From the NCBI GenBank assembly GCA_947166625.1, contig CAMVEX010000021.1, positions 1 through 45,329 of the forward strand: a DNA stretch of 45,329 nucleotides. Reading direction: 5' to 3'. The notes below the pieces were generated by a model that worked only from the letters and a program-made list of their open reading frames with translations, ran no database searches and had not been told where the DNA came from. The position numbers and the translations under genes were made by a program. Below are positions 3,879-36,128 of this stretch, one piece after another (the stretch's first letter is position 1; each line of letters begins with the position of its first letter). Origin of the DNA: an uncultured Clostridia bacterium. Lineage in GTDB: Bacteria; Bacillota; Clostridia; Oscillospirales; Acutalibacteraceae.

Positions 3879-5720
3879 ATGAACGAAAAAATCGGAGAGC
3901 TTCGCAAAAAAGCGATGTCTCTTCCGCTGACTCCGGGCGTTTATATCATGAAAAACAAGAGCGGCGAGATCATTTATATCGGCAAGGCAAAGGCGCTCAA
4001 AAACAGGGTGAGTCAGTATTTCGGCTCACCTCACAACCATCCTCCCAAAGTGCGCAAGATGGTCGAGAATGTCAATGATTTCGATTATATCCTCTGCGAT
4101 ACTGAGTTTGAGGCGCTGGTCCTCGAATGCTCGCTTATAAAGCAGCATTCGCCGAAATATAATATTCTGCTCAAGGATGATAAGGGCTACAGCTATATCA
4201 GAGTCGAGCGCGGAGAATGGAAAAATTTCAAGGTCGTGAAGCAGAAATATGACGACGGCGCGGAGTATATAGGGCCCTACATGAGCTCCGCGGGCATCTC
4301 GGCGGCGGTTGACAGAGCAAAAAAAATATTCAGGCTGCCCACCTGCAACAAGAGCTTTCCCAAAGAATACGGCAAGAGCAGACCCTGCCTGAATTATTCG
4401 ATAGGTCAGTGCGCGGCGCCCTGTGCGGGAAAGATCTCCGCCGAGGCTCATAACGAAAATGTCAGAAGCGCCCTCGAATTCATAACCGGCGGCTCCGAAA
4501 AGGTCATCAAAGAGCTCACCGAGCAGATGTATAATGCTGCGGAAAACGAAGAATATGAAAAAGCGGCGAAGCTCCGCGATACGATAAAATCGATCAACAG
4601 AATTTCGGATAAACAGAAGGTAGTCGCCGCCTCGGTCAAGGAGCAGGATGTTTTTGCCACGGTAGGCGCCAAGCAGGGTATAAATCCCAAAGCCTGCCTC
4701 TCTGTCCTGAGATTTGAGGATTACCGGCTCTATGACAGCGAGTATTTCATCATAGATCTGCCCGAAAATATGGCGGAGGCAAGGCATGAACTGATAAGAA
4801 GCTTCTATACGATCCGCGACAATGTGCCCGCGAGGGTCGCGGTTGACGGAGAGGTTGAGGATTCGGAACTGCTTTCCGAATGGCTTTCTCAAAAAGCCGG
4901 CAGGAAGGTCACCATCGCTCTCCCCGTGAGAGGGGAGCAGCATAAGCTGACGGAAATGTGCCGTTCAAACGCCGCGCAGAAGCTTGCGCTCTATCTCGGA
5001 AGGACGGGCAAGGCTACCGCCGCGCTTGATGAGCTCGGCCAGCTTCTCGGTCTCAAAGAGCCGCCCGAATTTATCGAATCATACGATATTTCACATACCG
5101 CAGGCTCAAATAATGTAGCGGGAATGGTCGTATTCAAAGACGGTCTTCCTTATAAAAAATCTTACAGGCGTTTTTCGATCAAAGGCTTTTCGGGTCAGGA
5201 TGATTACGCTTCAATGGCGGAGGTCATCGACAGAAGGCTTACGGAATATGAAAATGATAAAGACAGCGGCGAAGGCTTCGGCAGGCTGCCCGATCTGATC
5301 CTGCTTGACGGCGGCACGGGGCAGGTAAACGCGGTCATCCCCGTCCTCGAGAAACACGGGCTAAATATACCGCTTTTCGGAATGGTGAAGGATTCTCATC
5401 ACCGCACAAGGGCGATAGCGGTTTCGGGCGGAGAGATTTCGCTCACCTCAAAAAGGAGCGCCTTCACGCTTGTTTCCACCATTCAGGAGGAAGTCCACAG
5501 ATATTCCGTAGCGTATCACCATGCAAAGAATAAAAAATCGGGCATCTCGACCACCCTCACGAATATCGAGGGGATCGGCGAGGCGAGAGCAAAGACCCTG
5601 CTCAGGCATTTCAAGACGGTAAAAGCCATTTCTCAGGCGAGTGAAGAAGAAATACAGGCCGTCAAAGGTATGAGCAAGGCGTCCGCACACGCGGTCTATG
5701 AAGCGTTTCATTCTGAATAA
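3879..5720 (+). CDS. uvrC: Excinuclease ABC subunit C
   Basis: A 613-residue UvrC, the nuclease that makes both incisions during nucleotide excision repair. The N-terminal GIY-YIG nuclease is clear (GVY near 20, YIG near 33). Four cysteines (C156, C170, C178, C182) fit the UvrC iron-sulfur site. A UVR (UvrB-contact) helix pair spans about 208-240, the RNase H-like nuclease has its aspartate in SYDISHTAG near 403, and a helix-hairpin-helix pair spans about 560-610. The start follows AAGGAGGTG. It heads a same-strand block with obgE, mrnC and a YitT-family gene. Confidence 0.98.
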   Translation: MNEKIGELRKKAMSLPLTPGVYIMKNKSGEIIYIGKAKALKNRVSQYFGSPHNHPPKVRKMVENVNDFDYILCDTEFEALVLECSLIKQHSPKYNILLKDDKGYSYIRVERGEWKNFKVVKQKYDDGAEYIGPYMSSAGISAAVDRAKKIFRLPTCNKSFPKEYGKSRPCLNYSIGQCAAPCAGKISAEAHNENVRSALEFITGGSEKVIKELTEQMYNAAENEEYEKAAKLRDTIKSINRISDKQKVVAASVKEQDVFATVGAKQGINPKACLSVLRFEDYRLYDSEYFIIDLPENMAEARHELIRSFYTIRDNVPARVAVDGEVEDSELLSEWLSQKAGRKVTIALPVRGEQHKLTEMCRSNAAQKLALYLGRTGKATAALDELGQLLGLKEPPEFIESYDISHTAGSNNVAGMVVFKDGLPYKKSYRRFSIKGFSGQDDYASMAEVIDRRLTEYENDKDSGEGFGRLPDLILLDGGTGQVNAVIPVLEKHGLNIPLFGMVKDSHHRTRAIAVSGGEISLTSKRSAFTLVSTIQEEVHRYSVAYHHAKNKKSGISTTLTNIEGIGEARAKTLLRHFKTVKAISQASEEEIQAVKGMSKASAHAVYEAFHSE

Positions 5721-5749
5721 AAGCGCTTGATTTTCAAGGAGAAACACAG

Positions 5750-7021
5750 ATGTTTGTTGATATTGCAAAGATAAAGATAAAGGGCGGAAACGGCGGCAAC
5801 GGAGCCGTCAGCTTCCGCAGAGAAAAATATGTGGCCGCAGGCGGACCCGACGGCGGCGACGGCGGCAGGGGAGGAAACGTTGTTTTTAAGGTGAATGACA
5901 ATCTTTCCACTCTCGCCGATTTCAGATATAAGAGAAAATACACCGCCCCCAACGGGCAGGACGGCTCCGGCGGCAGAAAAAACGGCAGGAAGGGCGAAGA
6001 TCTGATCATATATGTGCCCAAAGGCACGATAATCAGAGAGGCAGAGAGCGGAGCGGTAATGGCGGATATGTCATCCGACGAGCCTTTCATAGCTGCAAAG
6101 GGCGGCAGAGGCGGCTGGGGCAACCCTCATTTCGCCACGCCGACAAGGCAGGTGCCGAGATTTGCCAAAGAGGGCACTCCCGGCGAGGAATGGGAGGTTT
6201 CTCTCGAGCTTAAACTCCTTGCCGATGTGGGTCTGCTCGGCTTTCCGAATGTTGGCAAATCCACCCTTGTATCCGTTGTCAGTGAAGCAAAGCCCATAAT
6301 CGCGAATTATCATTTCACCACCATAACCCCCGTGCTCGGTGTGGTCTCGATGGGCGAGGGCAATTCATTCGTTATGGCGGATATCCCCGGTCTGATAGAG
6401 GGCGCGGGCGACGGCGTAGGCCTCGGCCATGAATTCCTGCGCCATGTTGACAGATGCCGTATGCTCGTTCATATTCTTGACGCGGCGGGCAGCGAGGGCA
6501 GGGACCCTATAGATGATTTCAATATCATCAACAGAGAGCTCGAAAAATTCGATCCGGAGCTCGCAAAGCGGCCTCAGATAGTGGTAGCGAATAAAATCGA
6601 TCTCGCCGAAGACGGGCAGGTCGAAAAGCTCCGCAAATATTTTGAGGAGCGCGGATATGAGTTTTACACGATGTGCGCCCCGATCCTCGAAGGCACCCGG
6701 GAGCTTGTCAACGCCATCTGGAATAAACTCGGCACTCTGCCCCCGATAAAGCAGTATGAGACCGAGTCGATACCGCTCGAAATGTTTGAAAAAACGGATG
6801 ACAAAGGTTTCACGATAACCGTCAGAGACAATGTTTATTTCGTTGAGGCTCCGTGGCTGCTCAAAATACTTCAGAGATGCGATCTCGATGATTATGAGTC
6901 GCTTCAGTATTTCCAGCGGGTGCTTTTATCGAGCGGAATAATCGACGCCCTTCATGAAAAAGGGATCAATGAGGGCGACACGGTTTCGATATACGATCTC
7001 GAATTTGATTTTGTGAATTAA
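5750..7021 (+). CDS. obgE: Obg/CgtA-family GTPase
   Basis: A 423-residue ribosome-associated GTPase involved in large-subunit maturation and growth control. The glycine-rich Obg fold occupies about 1-158. The G domain shows GFPNVGKS (164-171), the Obg-type TT switch, DIPG (211-214) and NKID (281-284). The C-terminal OCT domain (about 345-423) is the form found in Firmicutes. AGGAGA lies upstream of ATG. It starts 29 bp after uvrC and ends 9 bp before mrnC, so co-transcription is likely. Confidence 0.98.
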   Translation: MFVDIAKIKIKGGNGGNGAVSFRREKYVAAGGPDGGDGGRGGNVVFKVNDNLSTLADFRYKRKYTAPNGQDGSGGRKNGRKGEDLIIYVPKGTIIREAESGAVMADMSSDEPFIAAKGGRGGWGNPHFATPTRQVPRFAKEGTPGEEWEVSLELKLLADVGLLGFPNVGKSTLVSVVSEAKPIIANYHFTTITPVLGVVSMGEGNSFVMADIPGLIEGAGDGVGLGHEFLRHVDRCRMLVHILDAAGSEGRDPIDDFNIINRELEKFDPELAKRPQIVVANKIDLAEDGQVEKLRKYFEERGYEFYTMCAPILEGTRELVNAIWNKLGTLPPIKQYETESIPLEMFEKTDDKGFTITVRDNVYFVEAPWLLKILQRCDLDDYESLQYFQRVLLSSGIIDALHEKGINEGDTVSIYDLEFDFVN

Positions 7022-7426: not shown

Positions 7427-8288
7427 AGCGGATTTATTGAACGGTGCTAAGCAGGCTTGTATCTGGATAATCGGATGTCTGCTCTATTCTACGGCGGTCA
7501 ACGGATTCGCCCTGCCCAATTCCATAGCTCAGAGCGGTATGACGGGCGCCTCGGTCATTTTGCATAAGCTTTTTGATTGGCCGATAGGCCTTGTGGGATT
7601 CGCTTTGAATATCCCTCTGCTTGTGCTTATGTTCTTTTTCATAAGCAGGGCAAGTCTGCTCAAAACGCTTATCGTTTCGGGAATCCTCTCCGTCGCGCTC
7701 GATCTGATGACCTATCTCTTTGATAATTTCATCCCCGTATATGAGGGCAACCCGATCCTCGCGGCTCTGATTTGCGGAGTGCTTCAGGGGGCGGGTCTCG
7801 GTATGATAATGACTACCGACGCCACAAGTGGCGGCACCGATATTATCGGAAGGCTCGTCCATAAGCTATTCCCTTATATCACCGTGGGCAGAGTGGTTAT
7901 GGCGGCGGATGCTCTTATCGTCATCGCTTATATGCTCGTTTTCAGGAGCTTTGACAGCGGCCTTTACGCCATCATAGTCGCCTTCGTTTCAACGAGAGTG
8001 ATAGACTCTCTGCTTTACGGTATGGGCAACGGCAAAATGCTGATGATCTTTTCCGATAAGGCTAATGAAATAGCCGAGGCGATCATTTCTTCATCGAGGC
8101 GCGGAGTCTCGATCATACCGGCGACGGGCGCGTATTCAAAGGAAGAGAAAAATATGCTTATATGCGTCGCGAGGAAGAATGAGATCAGCGGTCTGCTCAA
8201 AACCGTAAAATCTATTGATGACGAAACTTTCATCATCGTCAGCGAGGCAAATGAGGTGCTCGGCAAAGGATTTAAGCGGACGATATGA
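7410..8288 (+). CDS. YitT family (DUF161/DUF2179) membrane protein
   Basis: A 292-residue integral membrane protein of unknown function. About five hydrophobic segments occupy the first 200 residues, with family motifs GFALPNSIAQSGMTGAS and TDATSGGTDIIGR. A soluble DUF2179 domain ends the protein (about 215-290, with SRRGVSIIPATGAYS). The ATG at 7410 follows GGTGAAG and lies inside the 3' end of mrnC. The frame is open further upstream but that extension overlaps mrnC and looks non-coding. Confidence 0.92.
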   Translation: MKKPDKADLLNGAKQACIWIIGCLLYSTAVNGFALPNSIAQSGMTGASVILHKLFDWPIGLVGFALNIPLLVLMFFFISRASLLKTLIVSGILSVALDLMTYLFDNFIPVYEGNPILAALICGVLQGAGLGMIMTTDATSGGTDIIGRLVHKLFPYITVGRVVMAADALIVIAYMLVFRSFDSGLYAIIVAFVSTRVIDSLLYGMGNGKMLMIFSDKANEIAEAIISSSRRGVSIIPATGAYSKEEKNMLICVARKNEISGLLKTVKSIDDETFIIVSEANEVLGKGFKRTI

Positions 8289-8295
8289 ATATTTC

Positions 8296-8324
8296 TTGAC
8301 AATTCCCATCCGTTTTTATATAAT
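8296..8324 (+). promoter_or_regulatory. Consensus sigma-A promoter of the yebC-like gene
   Basis: TTGACA (8296-8301), 17-bp spacer, TATAAT (8319-8324): a perfect match to consensus. Confidence 0.9.
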
Positions 8325-8363
8325 TATCGGGATAATAATTCTCATGCGAAAAGAGGTAAATAT

Positions 8364-30150: not shown

Positions 30151-31263
30151 TTATTTCCTGAGTTTTTTGATGAAATACGCAAGTGCGCCTGCGGAAACGA
30201 GAGCCGAAATTCCGTAACCTGCCGCGTGGAAAGCCATGCTCTCTCTGTCGGTTATCTTTTTGAATATCGGGCCGAGGCTTTCGCTCTTGAGACCGAATTC
30301 TTTGAAATGCCTCAGCTCCTGCCTGAATCTGAGAGGGTTTCTCTCGCTGAGCTCAACATATCTTACACAGCTGTGGCAGCCGTCTGTATATGCTCTGAAT
30401 CCGGCTGTCTTATGCTGGGCGAGGAAGATCCCGTCCACAAAACCGGAGAAATCATTCAGATGGTCATGACCGAAAAACGCCGCTTTTACTCCGCCGGCGC
30501 GTTTCCACGCGTCAAACTGCCCGCTGTTGTAATCGGGGGCTGCGGGTCCTTCGCCGAGATAGCCGACGGTACCCCTCGCTTTCACATAGTGAGTGCCTTT
30601 TCTTTTACCGAATCCCTCGACGCTCCAGGGCAGCTCGGGGAGTTTTGCCTTGCGCAGCAGTTTGTATTCTTCGGGAACGGGTATATGCTGAAAGATATAT
30701 GACGGCATCGGATTTCCGCCGTTCAGTTCTTTAAGCGCCGCGGATTCTTTCTCAAACCATTCTATCTGATCCTCATGCACCCAGTCATAGACGGATATAT
30801 TTGGGTCGTCGCAGAGATTGTTTGAATCAAGAAACCACAGGCAGGCGAGGGGCTTTTTGCCGTCATGCGAATAGATAAGCTCCCTATAGTCCGCCTTGCC
30901 GGGCACGCCGTCGCATCTCATTGTCATATTCTCGATCTCGCCGTAGGCCTTGATCACCTCGGCGTCACAGCCGGCGTCATGCTCGTGGTTGCCCATGATC
31001 GCGCATACGGGAATATTCCGAGAGAGGATGGGCGCGCATATATCCTTTACGCCGCGCTTGAATCCTTCGGGGTCATCCTTGCAGTTTGCGGTGTTGAAAG
31101 TATCTCCGAGCAAAACGCACAGGTCGGGTCTGTACATATCGAGAGCGGCATTCATCAGCTTTTGCATATCTTTGAATTTTGCGGAATCCGCATAGTCAAA
31201 GTATTCGTGAAGGTCTCCGAACAGAAGTATTCCGAATCTTCCGTTTGAATTGAATTTAAGCAT
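30151..31263 (-). CDS. Calcineurin-like metallophosphoesterase with C-terminal membrane helix
   Basis: A 370-residue phosphoesterase showing GDLH, GDT, GNHEHD, a later FQHIP and GHDHLND. A short hydrophobic helix near the C terminus (ISALVSAGALAYFI) followed by lysines suggests a membrane anchor. It is the first gene of the minus-strand cluster running to aconitase X, with its own promoter. It resembles the enzyme at 19821-21011 in domain order and motifs. Substrate unknown. Confidence 0.9.
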   Translation of the reverse strand: MLKFNSNGRFGILLFGDLHEYFDYADSAKFKDMQKLMNAALDMYRPDLCVLLGDTFNTANCKDDPEGFKRGVKDICAPILSRNIPVCAIMGNHEHDAGCDAEVIKAYGEIENMTMRCDGVPGKADYRELIYSHDGKKPLACLWFLDSNNLCDDPNISVYDWVHEDQIEWFEKESAALKELNGGNPMPSYIFQHIPVPEEYKLLRKAKLPELPWSVEGFGKRKGTHYVKARGTVGYLGEGPAAPDYNSGQFDAWKRAGGVKAAFFGHDHLNDFSGFVDGIFLAQHKTAGFRAYTDGCHSCVRYVELSERNPLRFRQELRHFKEFGLKSESLGPIFKKITDRESMAFHAAGYGISALVSAGALAYFIKKLRK

Positions 31264-32316: not shown

Positions 32317-32345
32317 TTGACTTTAATACGCGAAAAATGTATAAT
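32317..32345 (+). promoter_or_regulatory. Sigma-A promoter of the amino-acid ABC operon
   Basis: TTGACT (32317-32322), 17-bp spacer, TATAAT (32340-32345). The ~100-nt leader contains a TGCCGG/CCGGCA hairpin but no riboswitch I recognise. Confidence 0.85.
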
Positions 32346-32448
32346 GCATAATTGTCAAAAGGGAATTGCCGGCGATTTTATATGCCCGGCATTATCCGTA
32401 TTCAGAAATATGCGAAATGATTCGCAGAGAATTTCAGGAGGTTTCGTT

Positions 32449-33351
32449 ATGAAAAAGTTTGTAAAAATCATTGCGGTTATTATGGCTCTTGCTCTCGCAC
32501 TCGGCTGCCTTGCCGCCTGCGGCTCAAAGACAGAGGAAGAAAATACCGCTCCGAGCGAATCCGACAGTGCTGTAACTGCGGCGGCTGTCAAAGTTATTGA
32601 TATTCCGCTTACCGAGGAAGAATATGCTTTCGGTGTTTCAAAAGAGCAACCTGAGCTTCTTGCACAGCTCAACGAGTACATCGCAAAAATCAAGGCTGAC
32701 GGCACTCTTGATAAAATAATGAACGCCTATTTCGGTGACGGAGAGTCAAATCCCGGCGTAGCATCCGCCGCGGAGGATGCTTCAAAGGATCAGTTAGTCA
32801 TAGCGACCAACGCGGAGTTTCCTCCTTTTGAGCAGATTGACGGCGAGCTTTATTTCGGAATTGATATTGATATAATGAACGGTTTTGCCCAGAGCATCGG
32901 CAAAGAGCTTGTTATCAAAAATATCGACTTTGACTCGGTTCTCACTACCGTTGATGCCGGATATGCCGATATAGCCGCTTCCGGACTCACCAAAAACGAG
33001 GCGAGAGAGGAATACGTCGCATTCAGTGATTCCTATTACAATGCGTCACAGCTCATCATCACAAAAGGTGATGATACAACGTTTGATGAATGCAAGACAG
33101 TCGAAGATATGGAAAAAGTTTTGAAAGCTTTTACTTCCTCCACCGTCATCGGCTCGCAAAACGGCACCACAGGGAAGCTCTATGTTGAGGGTGACGAAGA
33201 TTTCGGATTTGACGGTCTTTCCGCAAAGAGCGTAGGCTATGCGAACGGAGCTCTCGCAGTTCAGGATATGCTTAACGGTAATATTGATTTTGTTATCATT
33301 GATGAAGCGCCCGCTAAAGCAATATCCTCCAATTTTAACTCTATGGCATAA
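32449..33351 (+). CDS. Amino-acid ABC transporter substrate-binding lipoprotein, apparently circularly permuted
   Basis: A 300-residue exported lipoprotein (signal peptide with lipobox LAAC, Cys24) of the SBP_bac_3 family that should capture a polar amino acid outside the cell. Segment order is unusual. Residues 47-96 (VIDIPLTEEEYAFGV then GTLDKIMNAYFG) are what normally ends such proteins. The normal mature start (QLVIATNAEFPPFE) appears at 115, and the protein stops at about 300 just after DFVIIDEAPAKAI, exactly where the displaced end would follow. ATG 32449 follows AGGAGG; the upstream open frame covers the promoter. Permease and ATPase genes follow. Confidence 0.9.
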   Translation: MKKFVKIIAVIMALALALGCLAACGSKTEEENTAPSESDSAVTAAAVKVIDIPLTEEEYAFGVSKEQPELLAQLNEYIAKIKADGTLDKIMNAYFGDGESNPGVASAAEDASKDQLVIATNAEFPPFEQIDGELYFGIDIDIMNGFAQSIGKELVIKNIDFDSVLTTVDAGYADIAASGLTKNEAREEYVAFSDSYYNASQLIITKGDDTTFDECKTVEDMEKVLKAFTSSTVIGSQNGTTGKLYVEGDEDFGFDGLSAKSVGYANGALAVQDMLNGNIDFVIIDEAPAKAISSNFNSMA

Positions 33352-33369: not shown

Positions 33370-33404
33370 GCCGGGAGGGGCTCTCCTCTCCCGGCTTGCT
33401 TTTA
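33370..33404 (+). terminator. Hairpin between binding-protein and permease genes
   Basis: Stem GCCGGGAG/CTCCCGGC (33370-33377 with 33388-33395) with tail TTGCTTTTATT. Such structures commonly let only part of the transcript continue, so that more binding protein than permease is made. Confidence 0.65.
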
Positions 33405-33420: not shown

Positions 33421-34134
33421 ATGTCTCAAAATATATGGGAAATAAAGTGGACCAAATTCTGGACATCATTCATTGAGCGCGGAGCGTATCATAAAGTGAT
33501 CGAAGGTCTGGAACATACGGTGATAATTGCGGTTGCGGGTCTGATGATCGGCATCTTACTGGGTACTTTAATAGCTGTAATTAAGGTTGTTCCGGGCAAG
33601 AATCCGGTAATGGGATTTCTTAAAAAAATCTGCAATCTTTATGTCAATTTCTTTCGCGGAACTCCGATGGTCGTTCAACTCCTTCTCGGGTATTATGTTC
33701 TGTTTCCGCTTATAGGTATCAAGATGTCGTCGCTCATGGTTTGTGTCGTAATCTTCGGCATGAATTCGGCCGCTTATGTTTCGGAAATTATGCGAGGCGG
33801 ATTGCTTTCGGTTAATTTCGGGCAAACCGAAGCTGGACGGGCGCTCGGACTCAGTTACCCCGTCACAATGATGAGAATTGTTGTTCCTCAGGCAGTAAAA
33901 AATATCCTTCCCACTTTGGGAAATGAATTTATCACTTTGATAAAAGAGACTTCAATAGTTTCATTTGTCGGCGCAATAGACCTGTGCCAGGCGTTCAGAA
34001 ATATCGGCGCAAGCAACTATGAATTTATGGTGCCTTATCTTGTGATGGCGGTCATATACATAGTTTTGGTGCTGTTCATCACTTACCTTATCAAAATAAC
34101 GGAAAGGAGGCTGCGTGCAAGTGACAAGCGCTGA
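33421..34134 (+). CDS. Amino-acid ABC transporter permease
   Basis: A 237-residue HisM/GlnP-type permease with about five membrane helices. The N-terminal [21 protein letters not shown] and [17 protein letters not shown] segments and the ATPase-contact loop [22 protein letters not shown] are characteristic. AAGGAG precedes the ATG. Its stop overlaps the start region of the ATPase gene, so permease and ATPase are coupled. Probably acts as a homodimer since no second permease is present. Confidence 0.95.
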
Positions 34135-35101
34135 ATCAAATAATCTTTACGCTGCCTCCCACAGCGATGACATAATCAACGCCAAGGGAATATACAAAAA
34201 CTTCGGTGAAAATGTCAAGGTGCTCAAGGGGATAAGCTGCGAGATAAAGAGAGGAGAAAGAGTCGTTATCATAGGCCCCTCCGGCTCGGGCAAAAGCACT
34301 TTTCTTCGCTGCCTGAACCTTTTGGAAGAGCCCACTTACGGCGAGGTATGGCTTGAGGATAAACTCGTCACTCCCGTTGATCCCTATCTCCATAAGGATG
34401 TCATCGAGCTTTCAAAAACCTACTGCAAGCTCCGAAACGAATATAAACCCGGGATTATCGGCGAATCCGAAGAAGAGATCAAAGAAAAGATCATAGCGGA
34501 TATCAAAAAGAGAGATCTGCTTCACGAGAAGCACGAGGGCAAAGCGTATAAAGCGCTGATGAAAAAGATATATGATGAGAATTATATCAATATAAATCTC
34601 GCAAGGCAAAAGGTCGGTATGGTCTTTCAGCAGTTCAATCTTTTTGAGAATCTGACGGTTATGGATAATATCACCCTCGCCCCGATGAAGCTGCTTAAAA
34701 TGAGCAAAGAGGATGCAGTAAAAAAAGCGACCGATCTGCTCACGAGAATCGGCCTTGCCGATAAAGCAAACGCTTATCCCGTCCAGCTTTCGGGCGGCCA
34801 GAAGCAGAGGATCGCCATCGTCAGGGCGCTCGCGATGGATCCCGATGTCCTGCTGTTTGATGAGCCCACGAGCGCGCTTGACCCCGAGATGGTCGGCGAA
34901 GTCCTCGATGTTATGAAGGAGCTTGCCGAATCCGGTATGACCATGGTGGTCGTCACCCACGAAATGGGCTTTGCCAGAGAGGTCGCTTCGCGTGTGCTGT
35001 TTATCGACGAGGGAGTTATAATGGAAGAAAACACTCCCGATAAATTCTTCGGAGATCCTCAGAATCCGAGGCTCAGAGATTTTCTGTCAAAAGTTCTTTG
35101 A
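34115..35101 (+). CDS. Amino-acid ABC transporter ATPase with ~70-residue insertion
   Basis: A 328-residue GlnQ/HisP-type ATPase powering the importer. Walker [10 protein letters not shown] is near 54-62, Q-loop in [10 protein letters not shown] near 168-177, signature LSGGQKQR near 225, Walker [13 protein letters not shown] near 245. Usual family length is about 240. The excess is a charged, probably helical stretch at about 88-160 between Walker A and the Q-loop. Two GTG starts (34115 and 34121) are possible behind AAAGGAGG; neither is decisively better. It overlaps the permease gene by 20 bp. Confidence 0.92.
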
Positions 35102-35132: not shown

Positions 35133-36128
35133 ATGCTGTCTGCGATCGCATCGGTAATCAGAAATGTTATGGTCGTCATTATGACCGTTGTAACCTTCAT
35201 CGCGCCTTTTTCTCACAAAAAAGAATCCAAAATCGAGCGAAAAAATGAGAATTGCAAAGCCGCTTTCGCCGCGATTTCCGATACTCATCTGAAAGATAAT
35301 TTCATCCGCCTCGGTATGTTTGAATTCGGCTTGCAGGATCTGGATCAGGCGAAGGATAAACTTGATGCCTTCATCGTAAACGGTGATATTACGGATCACG
35401 GCTATCCCGAGCATTGGCAGGCCTTTACCGATACCCTGCTCAAATACGATGTTTCCGATAACAATATCATGGTGCTCGGCAACCACGATACCTGGGGCGG
35501 CGACCGCACCTATGAATATACAAAATCCAATTTTATCAAATATTCCAAAGAGGCCACCGGCAGAGATATAGATGATGTTTATTTCACGGCAGATATATGC
35601 GGATATCCCGTGATCGTATTCGGCTCGCAGGCGGATCATACCGGCCCCACTTTTTACAGAGATCAGCTTGACTGGTTTGCCGAAGAGATGGCAAAGGCGG
35701 CTGAGAAGGGGCTCCCGATTTTCGTATTCTGCCATCAGCCGTTCAACGGCACCCACGGCCTGCCCTATAACTGGGAGCTTGAAAAAGACGCCGATCCAGA
35801 TGACGGCGGCATTGGCGAATCATCTGATGAAATTCTCGAAATTTGCAATAGGTATAAAAATGTAGTCTTTATCAGCGGCCATGTTCATGCCGGGCTGAGC
35901 ACCGCGGATGACAAAACGAATTATTCAAGCGTCGAAAAAGTCGGCAATGTCACCTCCGTAAACCTGCCGAGCTATGAGTATTTTGATTTTATGAGAGGCG
36001 GCCATTTGTTTAACGGCACCGGTTATATCTTTGAGGTCTATGATAATGAGATCCTGCTCAGAGCGAGGAATTTTGCTACCGGCACCTGGCTTGAAAAATA
36101 TGATTATGTTATTGAGATAACGGAATAA
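35133..36128 (+). CDS. Calcineurin-like metallophosphoesterase, membrane-anchored
   Basis: A 331-residue phosphoesterase with an N-terminal hydrophobic helix (about 5-28), suggesting an anchored catalytic domain facing outside. The metal motifs are SDTHL, NGDITDHG, GNHD, FCHQP and GHVHAG. GGGAGA precedes the ATG. It lies 31 bp after the ABC ATPase and 22 bp before the ferritin-like gene, so it may share their transcript. Substrate unknown; differs from the two other phosphoesterases in the window by its anchor and motifs. Confidence 0.9.
   Translation: MLSAIASVIRNVMVVIMTVVTFIAPFSHKKESKIERKNENCKAAFAAISDTHLKDNFIRLGMFEFGLQDLDQAKDKLDAFIVNGDITDHGYPEHWQAFTDTLLKYDVSDNNIMVLGNHDTWGGDRTYEYTKSNFIKYSKEATGRDIDDVYFTADICGYPVIVFGSQADHTGPTFYRDQLDWFAEEMAKAAEKGLPIFVFCHQPFNGTHGLPYNWELEKDADPDDGGIGESSDEILEICNRYKNVVFISGHVHAGLSTADDKTNYSSVEKVGNVTSVNLPSYEYFDFMRGGHLFNGTGYIFEVYDNEILLRARNFATGTWLEKYDYVIEITE

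Follow-up and report, generated by a model that had tools for sequence, protein, structure and literature searches.

The window analysed here is the whole of a 45,329-nucleotide stretch (contig CAMVEX010000021.1, positions 1 to 45,329 of the forward strand; assembly GCA_947166625.1) from an uncultured Clostridia bacterium of the family Acutalibacteraceae. It contains an operon in which the gene for a solute-binding protein (SBP) of the Pfam family SBP_bac_3 is adjoined by genes for the permease and the ATPase of an ATP-binding cassette (ABC) importer (Table 1). The SBP_bac_3 domain is a circular permutation, present as a complete single copy. We are confident in the overall interpretation of the gene as encoding a permuted amino-acid importer lipoprotein: a flytrap monomer anchored through lobe 2, the product of a permutation that has occurred repeatedly and is likely to have arisen by duplication.

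Table 1. Features of the permuted SBP gene and its operon (ORF, open reading frame; pLDDT, predicted local distance difference test score).
Feature	Positions	Strand	Basis
Circularly permuted SBP_bac_3 lipoprotein, type A, 300 residues	32449..33351	+	ORF translation, profile, model
Promoter-like site, TTGACT-17-TATAAT, upstream of SBP gene	32317..32345	+	11/12 consensus matches
AGGAGG, ribosome-binding-site-like, 7 bases 5' of ATG	32436..32441	+	read directly
Lipoprotein signal peptide, lipobox LAAC (residues 21–24)	32449..32520	+	read by eye
Spacer from Cys24 to domain, residues 25–45	32521..32583	+	pLDDT <50 in 23–27, 29–33 and 38–40
Displaced segment, canonical C-terminal end, residues 46–97	32584..32739	+	alignment to 4zv1 181–233
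New 17-residue linker, old C-terminus to old N-terminus, residues 98–114	32740..32790	+	4zv1 alignment
Lobe 1, first part, up to hinge strand 1, residues 115–206	32791..33066	+	alignment and model
Lobe 2 up to new C-terminus, residues 207–300	33067..33348	+	alignment, doubled profile, model
G+C-rich hairpin (11 pairs), then T-rich tail, between SBP and permease genes	33370..33395	+	
ABC importer permease, BPD_transp_1	33421..34134	+	Pfam
ABC importer ATPase, ABC_tran, start codon uncertain	34115..35101	+	Pfam

The displaced C-terminal motif KVIDIPLTEEEYAFGV...GTLDKIMNAYFG falls within residues 46–97, a sequence resembling a mature N-terminus, QLVIATNAEFPPFE, begins at residue 115, and the stop codon comes shortly after DFVIIDEAPAKAI. 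In phmmer searches of the Protein Data Bank (PDB), residues 115–292 aligned with residues 11–174 of AncQR (PDB entry 4zv1, a single-domain chain of 233 residues; independent E value 5e-17) and residues 45–97 with residues 181–233 of the same chain (8e-4), giving near-full coverage in swapped order. The same two swapped blocks were found with PDB entry 5t0w (5e-13 and 4e-5), and the whole-sequence E values were 1.3e-23 for 4zv1 and 9.5e-22 for 5t0w. Pfam SBP_bac_3 (PF00497) recognizes the protein with 104.1 bits against a gathering score of 26.4 (E 6e-30), and on a canonical profile written out twice (2 × 218 positions) the match runs from 168 to 385, which is one full turn. The D..PA motif lies 9 or 11 residues from the chain end in all 35 non-redundant permuted proteins, that of the window included, and in none of these 35 does a second C-terminal segment follow it. 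The domain is therefore a single complete fold in rotated order with no duplicated segment, and it forms a permuted subtype of SBP_bac_3 that departs from the canonical chain order of lobe 1, lobe 2, lobe 1.

These results bear out an earlier note, made from the sequence of this DNA alone, which had placed the C-terminal segment (there residues 47–96) just after the signal peptide and the normal mature N-terminus at residue 115, had the chain ending where the displaced part would follow, and proposed a circular permutation. Its rival case, in which residues 47–96 are an extra copy beside a full C-terminal segment, has no example among the 35 proteins. The new hinge order that it claimed holds in the sense that the chain passes from the last strand of lobe 2 through all of lobe 1 to the remainder of lobe 2, with lobe names that we take from GlnH-type structures. 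By the same assumption the displaced segment, in which the model has strands at 47–50 and 57–63 and helices at 68–83 and 86–95, presumably comprises the last strand of lobe 2, hinge strand 2 and two helices of lobe 1.

Scanning of genome contigs yielded 102 confirmed relatives, of which the best 80 loci were kept (the contig ends within one of them, L049). The permuted order was found in 80 of 80, all from other Clostridia, isolates included, and mostly in SBP–permease–ATPase operons. Named strains among them are R. torques ATCC 27756, Coprococcus catus, Dorea sp. 5-2, Acetivibrio mesophilus, A. straminisolvens, Thermoclostridium caenicola, Mediterraneibacter massiliensis and Sporofaciens musculi, the last on a 5.4-Mb contig. 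Within the genus of the window (45 genomes, its own included) the permuted protein is encoded by a single ORF in 14 genomes and occurs as two pieces on separate contigs in two; the best match is limited to block 104–294 in 28 and is weak in the remaining one. All 14 of those 28 congeners that were fetched (L023–L036) have the canonical order, and one of the 28, G028, also carries a divergent protein of the same type as that of the window, L199. Comparison with an 81%-identical relative, L037, gave dN 0.14 and dS 1.95 (NG86) or dN 0.15 and dS 1.31 (YN00); with dN/dS well below 1, the permuted gene is under purifying selection. The window genome is assembled in 49 contigs, which would leave room for an assembly artefact, or for a decaying tandem duplicate with a second partial copy. 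An assembly error, which the earlier note had named as a way in which it could fail, is excluded because the same order recurs in 80 of 80 loci, and a partial second copy or a pseudogene is ruled out by this recurrence together with the intact frames, the chain ends and the dN/dS values; we regard the chance of an artefact of either kind as negligible.

The rearrangement goes beyond what the earlier note had claimed in that it recurs, with three cut sites. Searches with a profile made from 33 aligned proteins of the window's type (alignment A1) also matched ORFs of about 270 residues that start at the displaced segment and stop in or soon after lobe 1. All ORFs were sorted by the doubled 218-position profile, on which canonical proteins match about 2–219. 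Type A, to which the window protein belongs, starts at 159–177 and ends at 380–388, apart from L022, which is truncated where its contig ends. Type B, whether alone or fused to a permease, runs from 95–109 to 312–326, and type C from 127–129 to 345–346, so that each makes one turn. On AncQR the cuts lie between residues 174 and 181 (A), 104 and 109 (B) and 135 and 141 (C). Judged by the GlnH structure, we take all three to be loops of lobe 2: B after hinge strand 1, C in the middle of the lobe and A before the last strand leading to hinge 2. The 295 SBP ORFs reduce to 229 distinct ones, namely 116 of type A, 77 canonical (including L017, a contig-end piece of a permuted protein), 33 of type B (ten of them fused or tandem) and three of type C. 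No permuted start inside lobe 1 was found among the 229, which come from loci gathered mostly by A and B profiles and are no unbiased census. One Lachnospiraceae locus, L083, has a type-A SBP at 4995–5858 and, about 1.6 kb further on, a type-B SBP of a different subfamily at 7509–8348.

In 391 genomes drawn from the class, that of the window included, at least 36 have a full-length type-A match (E up to 1e-40), and at least 24 others have a type-B match (E up to 1e-45), either free-standing or fused to the permease, these counts being lower bounds read from match rows at the E cut-offs; a tandem protein is present in another of the 391, G789. Types B and C also occur in a wider sample of the phylum (G124; G140, G279 and G327). 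A search of plasmids with a type-B protein returned 1,011 records, all below 60% identity; the 15 rows listed were joined pieces, annotated, where at all, as SBP or SBP/permease.

The linker that joins the old termini has a median length of 16–19.5 residues in five groups, split by score and type and with incomplete ends excluded; the range is 16–30 and the usual length 16–20 residues. These medians suggest that the linker has to span a set distance on lobe 1. The AlphaFold model of the single chain has a pLDDT of 90.8, with block means of 87–99 across residues 51–300, and shows the two-lobed type II flytrap fold. Taken together, sequence and pLDDT would place residues 46–97 beside the rest of the domain. 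Several structural results weigh against this picture of a permuted monomer. The model covers one chain and is hence silent on a domain-swapped dimer, the best Foldseek TM-score to the query is 0.43, the r.m.s. deviations run from 3.4 to 6.8, and most rows of Foldseek and VIA-align, both of which follow chain order, span only about 109–298. Six of 50 VIA-align rows start at 65–69, the longest being 5jkq_B (204 residues). Of the structural check proposed in the earlier note, the prediction of the fold was confident, and the chain-order alignments did not show the permuted fold in full. Among the matches listed (for the window protein, the best 60 of 76), the only solved chain that crosses the new junction is the tandem 6h30, and we are therefore aware of no permuted member whose structure has been solved.

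The T. maritima arginine-binding protein, ArgBP, is among the top fold matches, and we take it to be a dimer that is domain-swapped through its C-terminal helix. Since the linker is long enough to permit a swap, the displaced segment could instead complete a neighbouring molecule, which would make the protein an obligate domain-swapped oligomer. We consider this improbable. The median linker length fits a bridge between the fixed termini of one lobe, the single chain is modelled with high block means over 51–300, and the displaced segment is conserved like the rest: 48 of its 52 residues are identical in L037, the best of any part, compared with 80/92 and 79/94 elsewhere in the domain and 11/17 in the linker.

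Permease and ATPase genes follow the SBP gene in 131 of the 139 type-A rows; eight rows lack one or both in the retrieved stretch. SBP_bac_3 domains serve in receptors too, and the protein might accordingly be a component of a sensor or chemoreceptor; with the permease and ATPase directly downstream in nearly all cases, and with some type-B forms fused to both, such a role seems most unlikely. Arg186 and Asp285 are invariant in the 33-protein type-A alignment; they are presumably ligand contacts, and on this basis the window protein may bind an α-amino acid. Cys24 of the lipobox is likewise invariant in these proteins and is the probable site of lipidation.

A natural matched pair of a permuted and a canonical protein is that of L172 (type A) with L287, which have 132/168 and 36/49 identical residues in two blocks (79 and 73%). 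Their downstream permeases are 76% and their ATPases 72% identical. Orthologous importers therefore work with a permuted SBP in one species and with its canonical counterpart in a second. A looser pair, L018 and L292, has 113/177 and 31/49 identical residues.

The ATPase encoded in the window is 83% identical to those of canonical-SBP operons in two congeners (L303 and L311), compared with 77% to that of a permuted sister, L207, and the permease of the window is closest to permeases of the permuted family; from these sequences it seems that an exchange between operons has affected the ATPase. This ATPase carries an insert of about 68 residues between the Walker A and Q-loop regions. As a possible partner of the permutation this insert was rejected: it is long in seven of the 139 type-A rows, which represent about three genomes, and in four of 43 canonical rows, is short in most of both, and is alike in canonical and permuted operons.

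For phylogenetic analysis all sequences were re-phased to the canonical order, which keeps domain order out of the tree, and changes of topology on the tree were counted as gains or losses. Near-identical rows were thinned (205 to 85 and 282 to 111), and rows with X or odd segmentation (e.g. L097) were left out; a 77-row tree was made by removing eight long-branch or tandem rows and a 78-row tree by removing 16 rows in thinning and 17 that were long or belonged to another subfamily. The number of topology changes needed is 12 with 85 rows, nine with 77, 14 with 111 and ten with 78. Strongly supported branches force four changes to A and five to B in the 85-row tree, five and five in the 111-row tree, and four and three in the 78-row tree. 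Types A, B and C had been named beforehand by cut site, and the subdivisions into main A and small A and into main B, B2 and B3 were named after the tree had been viewed. In approximately unbiased (AU) tests a single clade was rejected for all A (p = 1.5e-9), for all B (p = 8.8e-4) and for all permuted proteins (p = 7.2e-6), and the permutation has therefore recurred. With long branches removed, one clade was still rejected for A (p = 0.0038) and for B minus L198 (p = 0.0050). Among the finer unions, main A with L172 and L019 (p = 0.0055), main A with small A (p = 0.0022) and main B (with L119) with B2 (p = 0.036) were rejected. L199 (A) and L083 (B) belong to another SBP_bac_3 subfamily, where they stand beside canonical proteins in the 111-row tree; they form long branches in the 85-row tree. 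L134 and type C already form one clade in the 78-row tree.

Other results count against numerous origins. With long branches removed (77 rows), supported branches force only two changes to A and three to B; the AU test did not reject the three small A groups as one clade (p = 0.076), nor the unions of L172 with L018 (p = 0.10), main B with L119 (p = 0.50) and B2 with B3 (p = 0.37); and L172, L018 and L175 have similar linkers. Very few old permutations might instead have been spread by transfer and in part lost again, by reversion or by gene conversion that replaced them with canonical copies. The likeness of the L172 and L018 linkers, though each protein groups with a different canonical one, and their unrejected union would fit such a history, as would the apparent exchange of the window ATPase, a sign that recombination occurs here. 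Against it stand the AU results, which reject a single clade of type A, of type B and of the permuted proteins as a whole, the three cut sites, which demand at least three events, and the place of L199 and L083 in another subfamily next to canonical proteins. We judge this history unlikely, while granting it appreciable weight. For repeated permutation we would defend a figure of about five or more events, and no precise number, some of the sub-splits being non-significant.

In the mechanism that we propose, the old N- and C-termini, both in lobe 1, would be tied by the 17-residue linker and the new termini would lie in a lobe 2 loop just ahead of its last strand. The product is expected to be a monomeric two-lobed flytrap that would bind an α-amino acid in its cleft, with closure of the lobes, and the closed protein would dock and deliver its ligand to the adjacent permease and ATPase as usual. 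The mechanical novelty would be a lipid anchor leaving from lobe 2 and not from lobe 1. The most likely origin would be a head-to-tail duplication in frame, after which the outer portions were lost. Tandem proteins of 755–779 residues in permuted phase, with lobe 2 first, are found at L197, L213, L225 (Sporofaciens musculi) and L281, and Pfam confirms a permease domain in those of L213 and L225. Single chains at L226 (1057–3423; Clostridium sp. Marseille-P3244) and L284 (263–3715) combine one or more type-B domains with permease and ATPase and are apparently whole ABC importers in one chain. A tandem-duplication origin is plausible because such type-B-phase tandem domains fused to a permease exist. 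On the other side, no ancestor of the permuted proteins was identified among the tandem proteins found, and the search for tandem ancestors suggested in the earlier note thus produced proteins of the right phase, none of them shown to be ancestral.

All of the new termini seen fall in lobe 2. In the amino-acid binders of Clostridia, permutation might be a means, selected repeatedly, of moving the membrane anchor or the permease-fusion point from lobe 1 to lobe 2. This suggestion is tentative, and we think it somewhat more apt to be wrong than right. If it were correct, the anchor would pull on the opposite lobe as the protein closes and docks, type B would further permit single-chain importers, and the permuted sugar binders of treponemes and gut Gram-positive bacteria would be a case of convergence.

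Of the local signals, the promoter-like site is a consensus match only, five such sites occurring in the region against a mean of 2.1 in shuffled sequences. The hairpin between the SBP and permease genes is possibly a read-through attenuator that would lower permease expression relative to that of the SBP. Genes for calcineurin-like phosphoesterases (PF00149) flank the operon at 30151–31263 (−) and 35133–36128 (+).

In sequence, predicted fold and operon partners the window protein resembles the SBP_bac_3 proteins GlnH, ArgT/LAO, T. maritima ArgBP and AncQR, and it shares with them conserved positions that we take to be ligand contacts. It differs from GlnH-type proteins in having its termini in lobe 2 and its old termini linked, usually by 16–20 residues. 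GlnPQ-type importers (e.g. 6h30) likewise have tandem, permease-fused SBP_bac_3 domains, whereas the tandems of L197, L213, L225, L281 and L284 start in type-B phase, with lobe 2 first. Annotators may conclude that a protein whose profile hits come in swapped order can be complete and need not be a fragment. Among the matches listed in the open-licence literature there was no report of a natural permuted amino-acid SBP; those on permuted SBPs were the T. pallidum protein discussed below and engineered sensors or constructs, the others being apparently unrelated by title. The permuted halves of T. maritima ribose-binding protein (PMC9815098) are permuted flytrap pieces too, but are laboratory constructs of a sugar binder.

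The precedent is TpMglB-2 (Tp0684) of T. pallidum, a 'Type Ic / Cluster Bc' ligand-binding protein. Its report describes a crystallized lipoprotein of type I fold that is circularly permuted and binds glucose, notes relatives in gut and Gram-positive bacteria, proposes the designation 'Type Ic' and offers anchoring as a possible reason for the permuted topology (PMC4990184). The Pfam matches of the window protein set it apart from this sugar-binding family: the four at E up to 1 are to SBP_bac_3, Lig_chan-Glu_bd and two weak others and to no sugar-binding family. By that report, both are natural, membrane-tethered, permuted binding proteins of ABC importers, TpMglB-2 being functional; in TpMglB-2 the permutation lies inside the N lobe, with an extra (fourth) crossover, and is described for one family, whereas the Clostridia proteins have the type II fold of amino-acid binders, were cut at three sites, arose more than once and have close canonical relatives. 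The sole natural permuted importer-binding protein found in print is described as a single family; here a small domain has been permuted more than once in one bacterial group, at a few places in a single lobe. Permuted and canonical proteins as close as L172 and L287, with their orthologous transporters, should allow the effect of topology on folding, binding, anchoring and transport to be measured almost in isolation, and the permuted SBPs offer natural templates for flytrap-based sensors.
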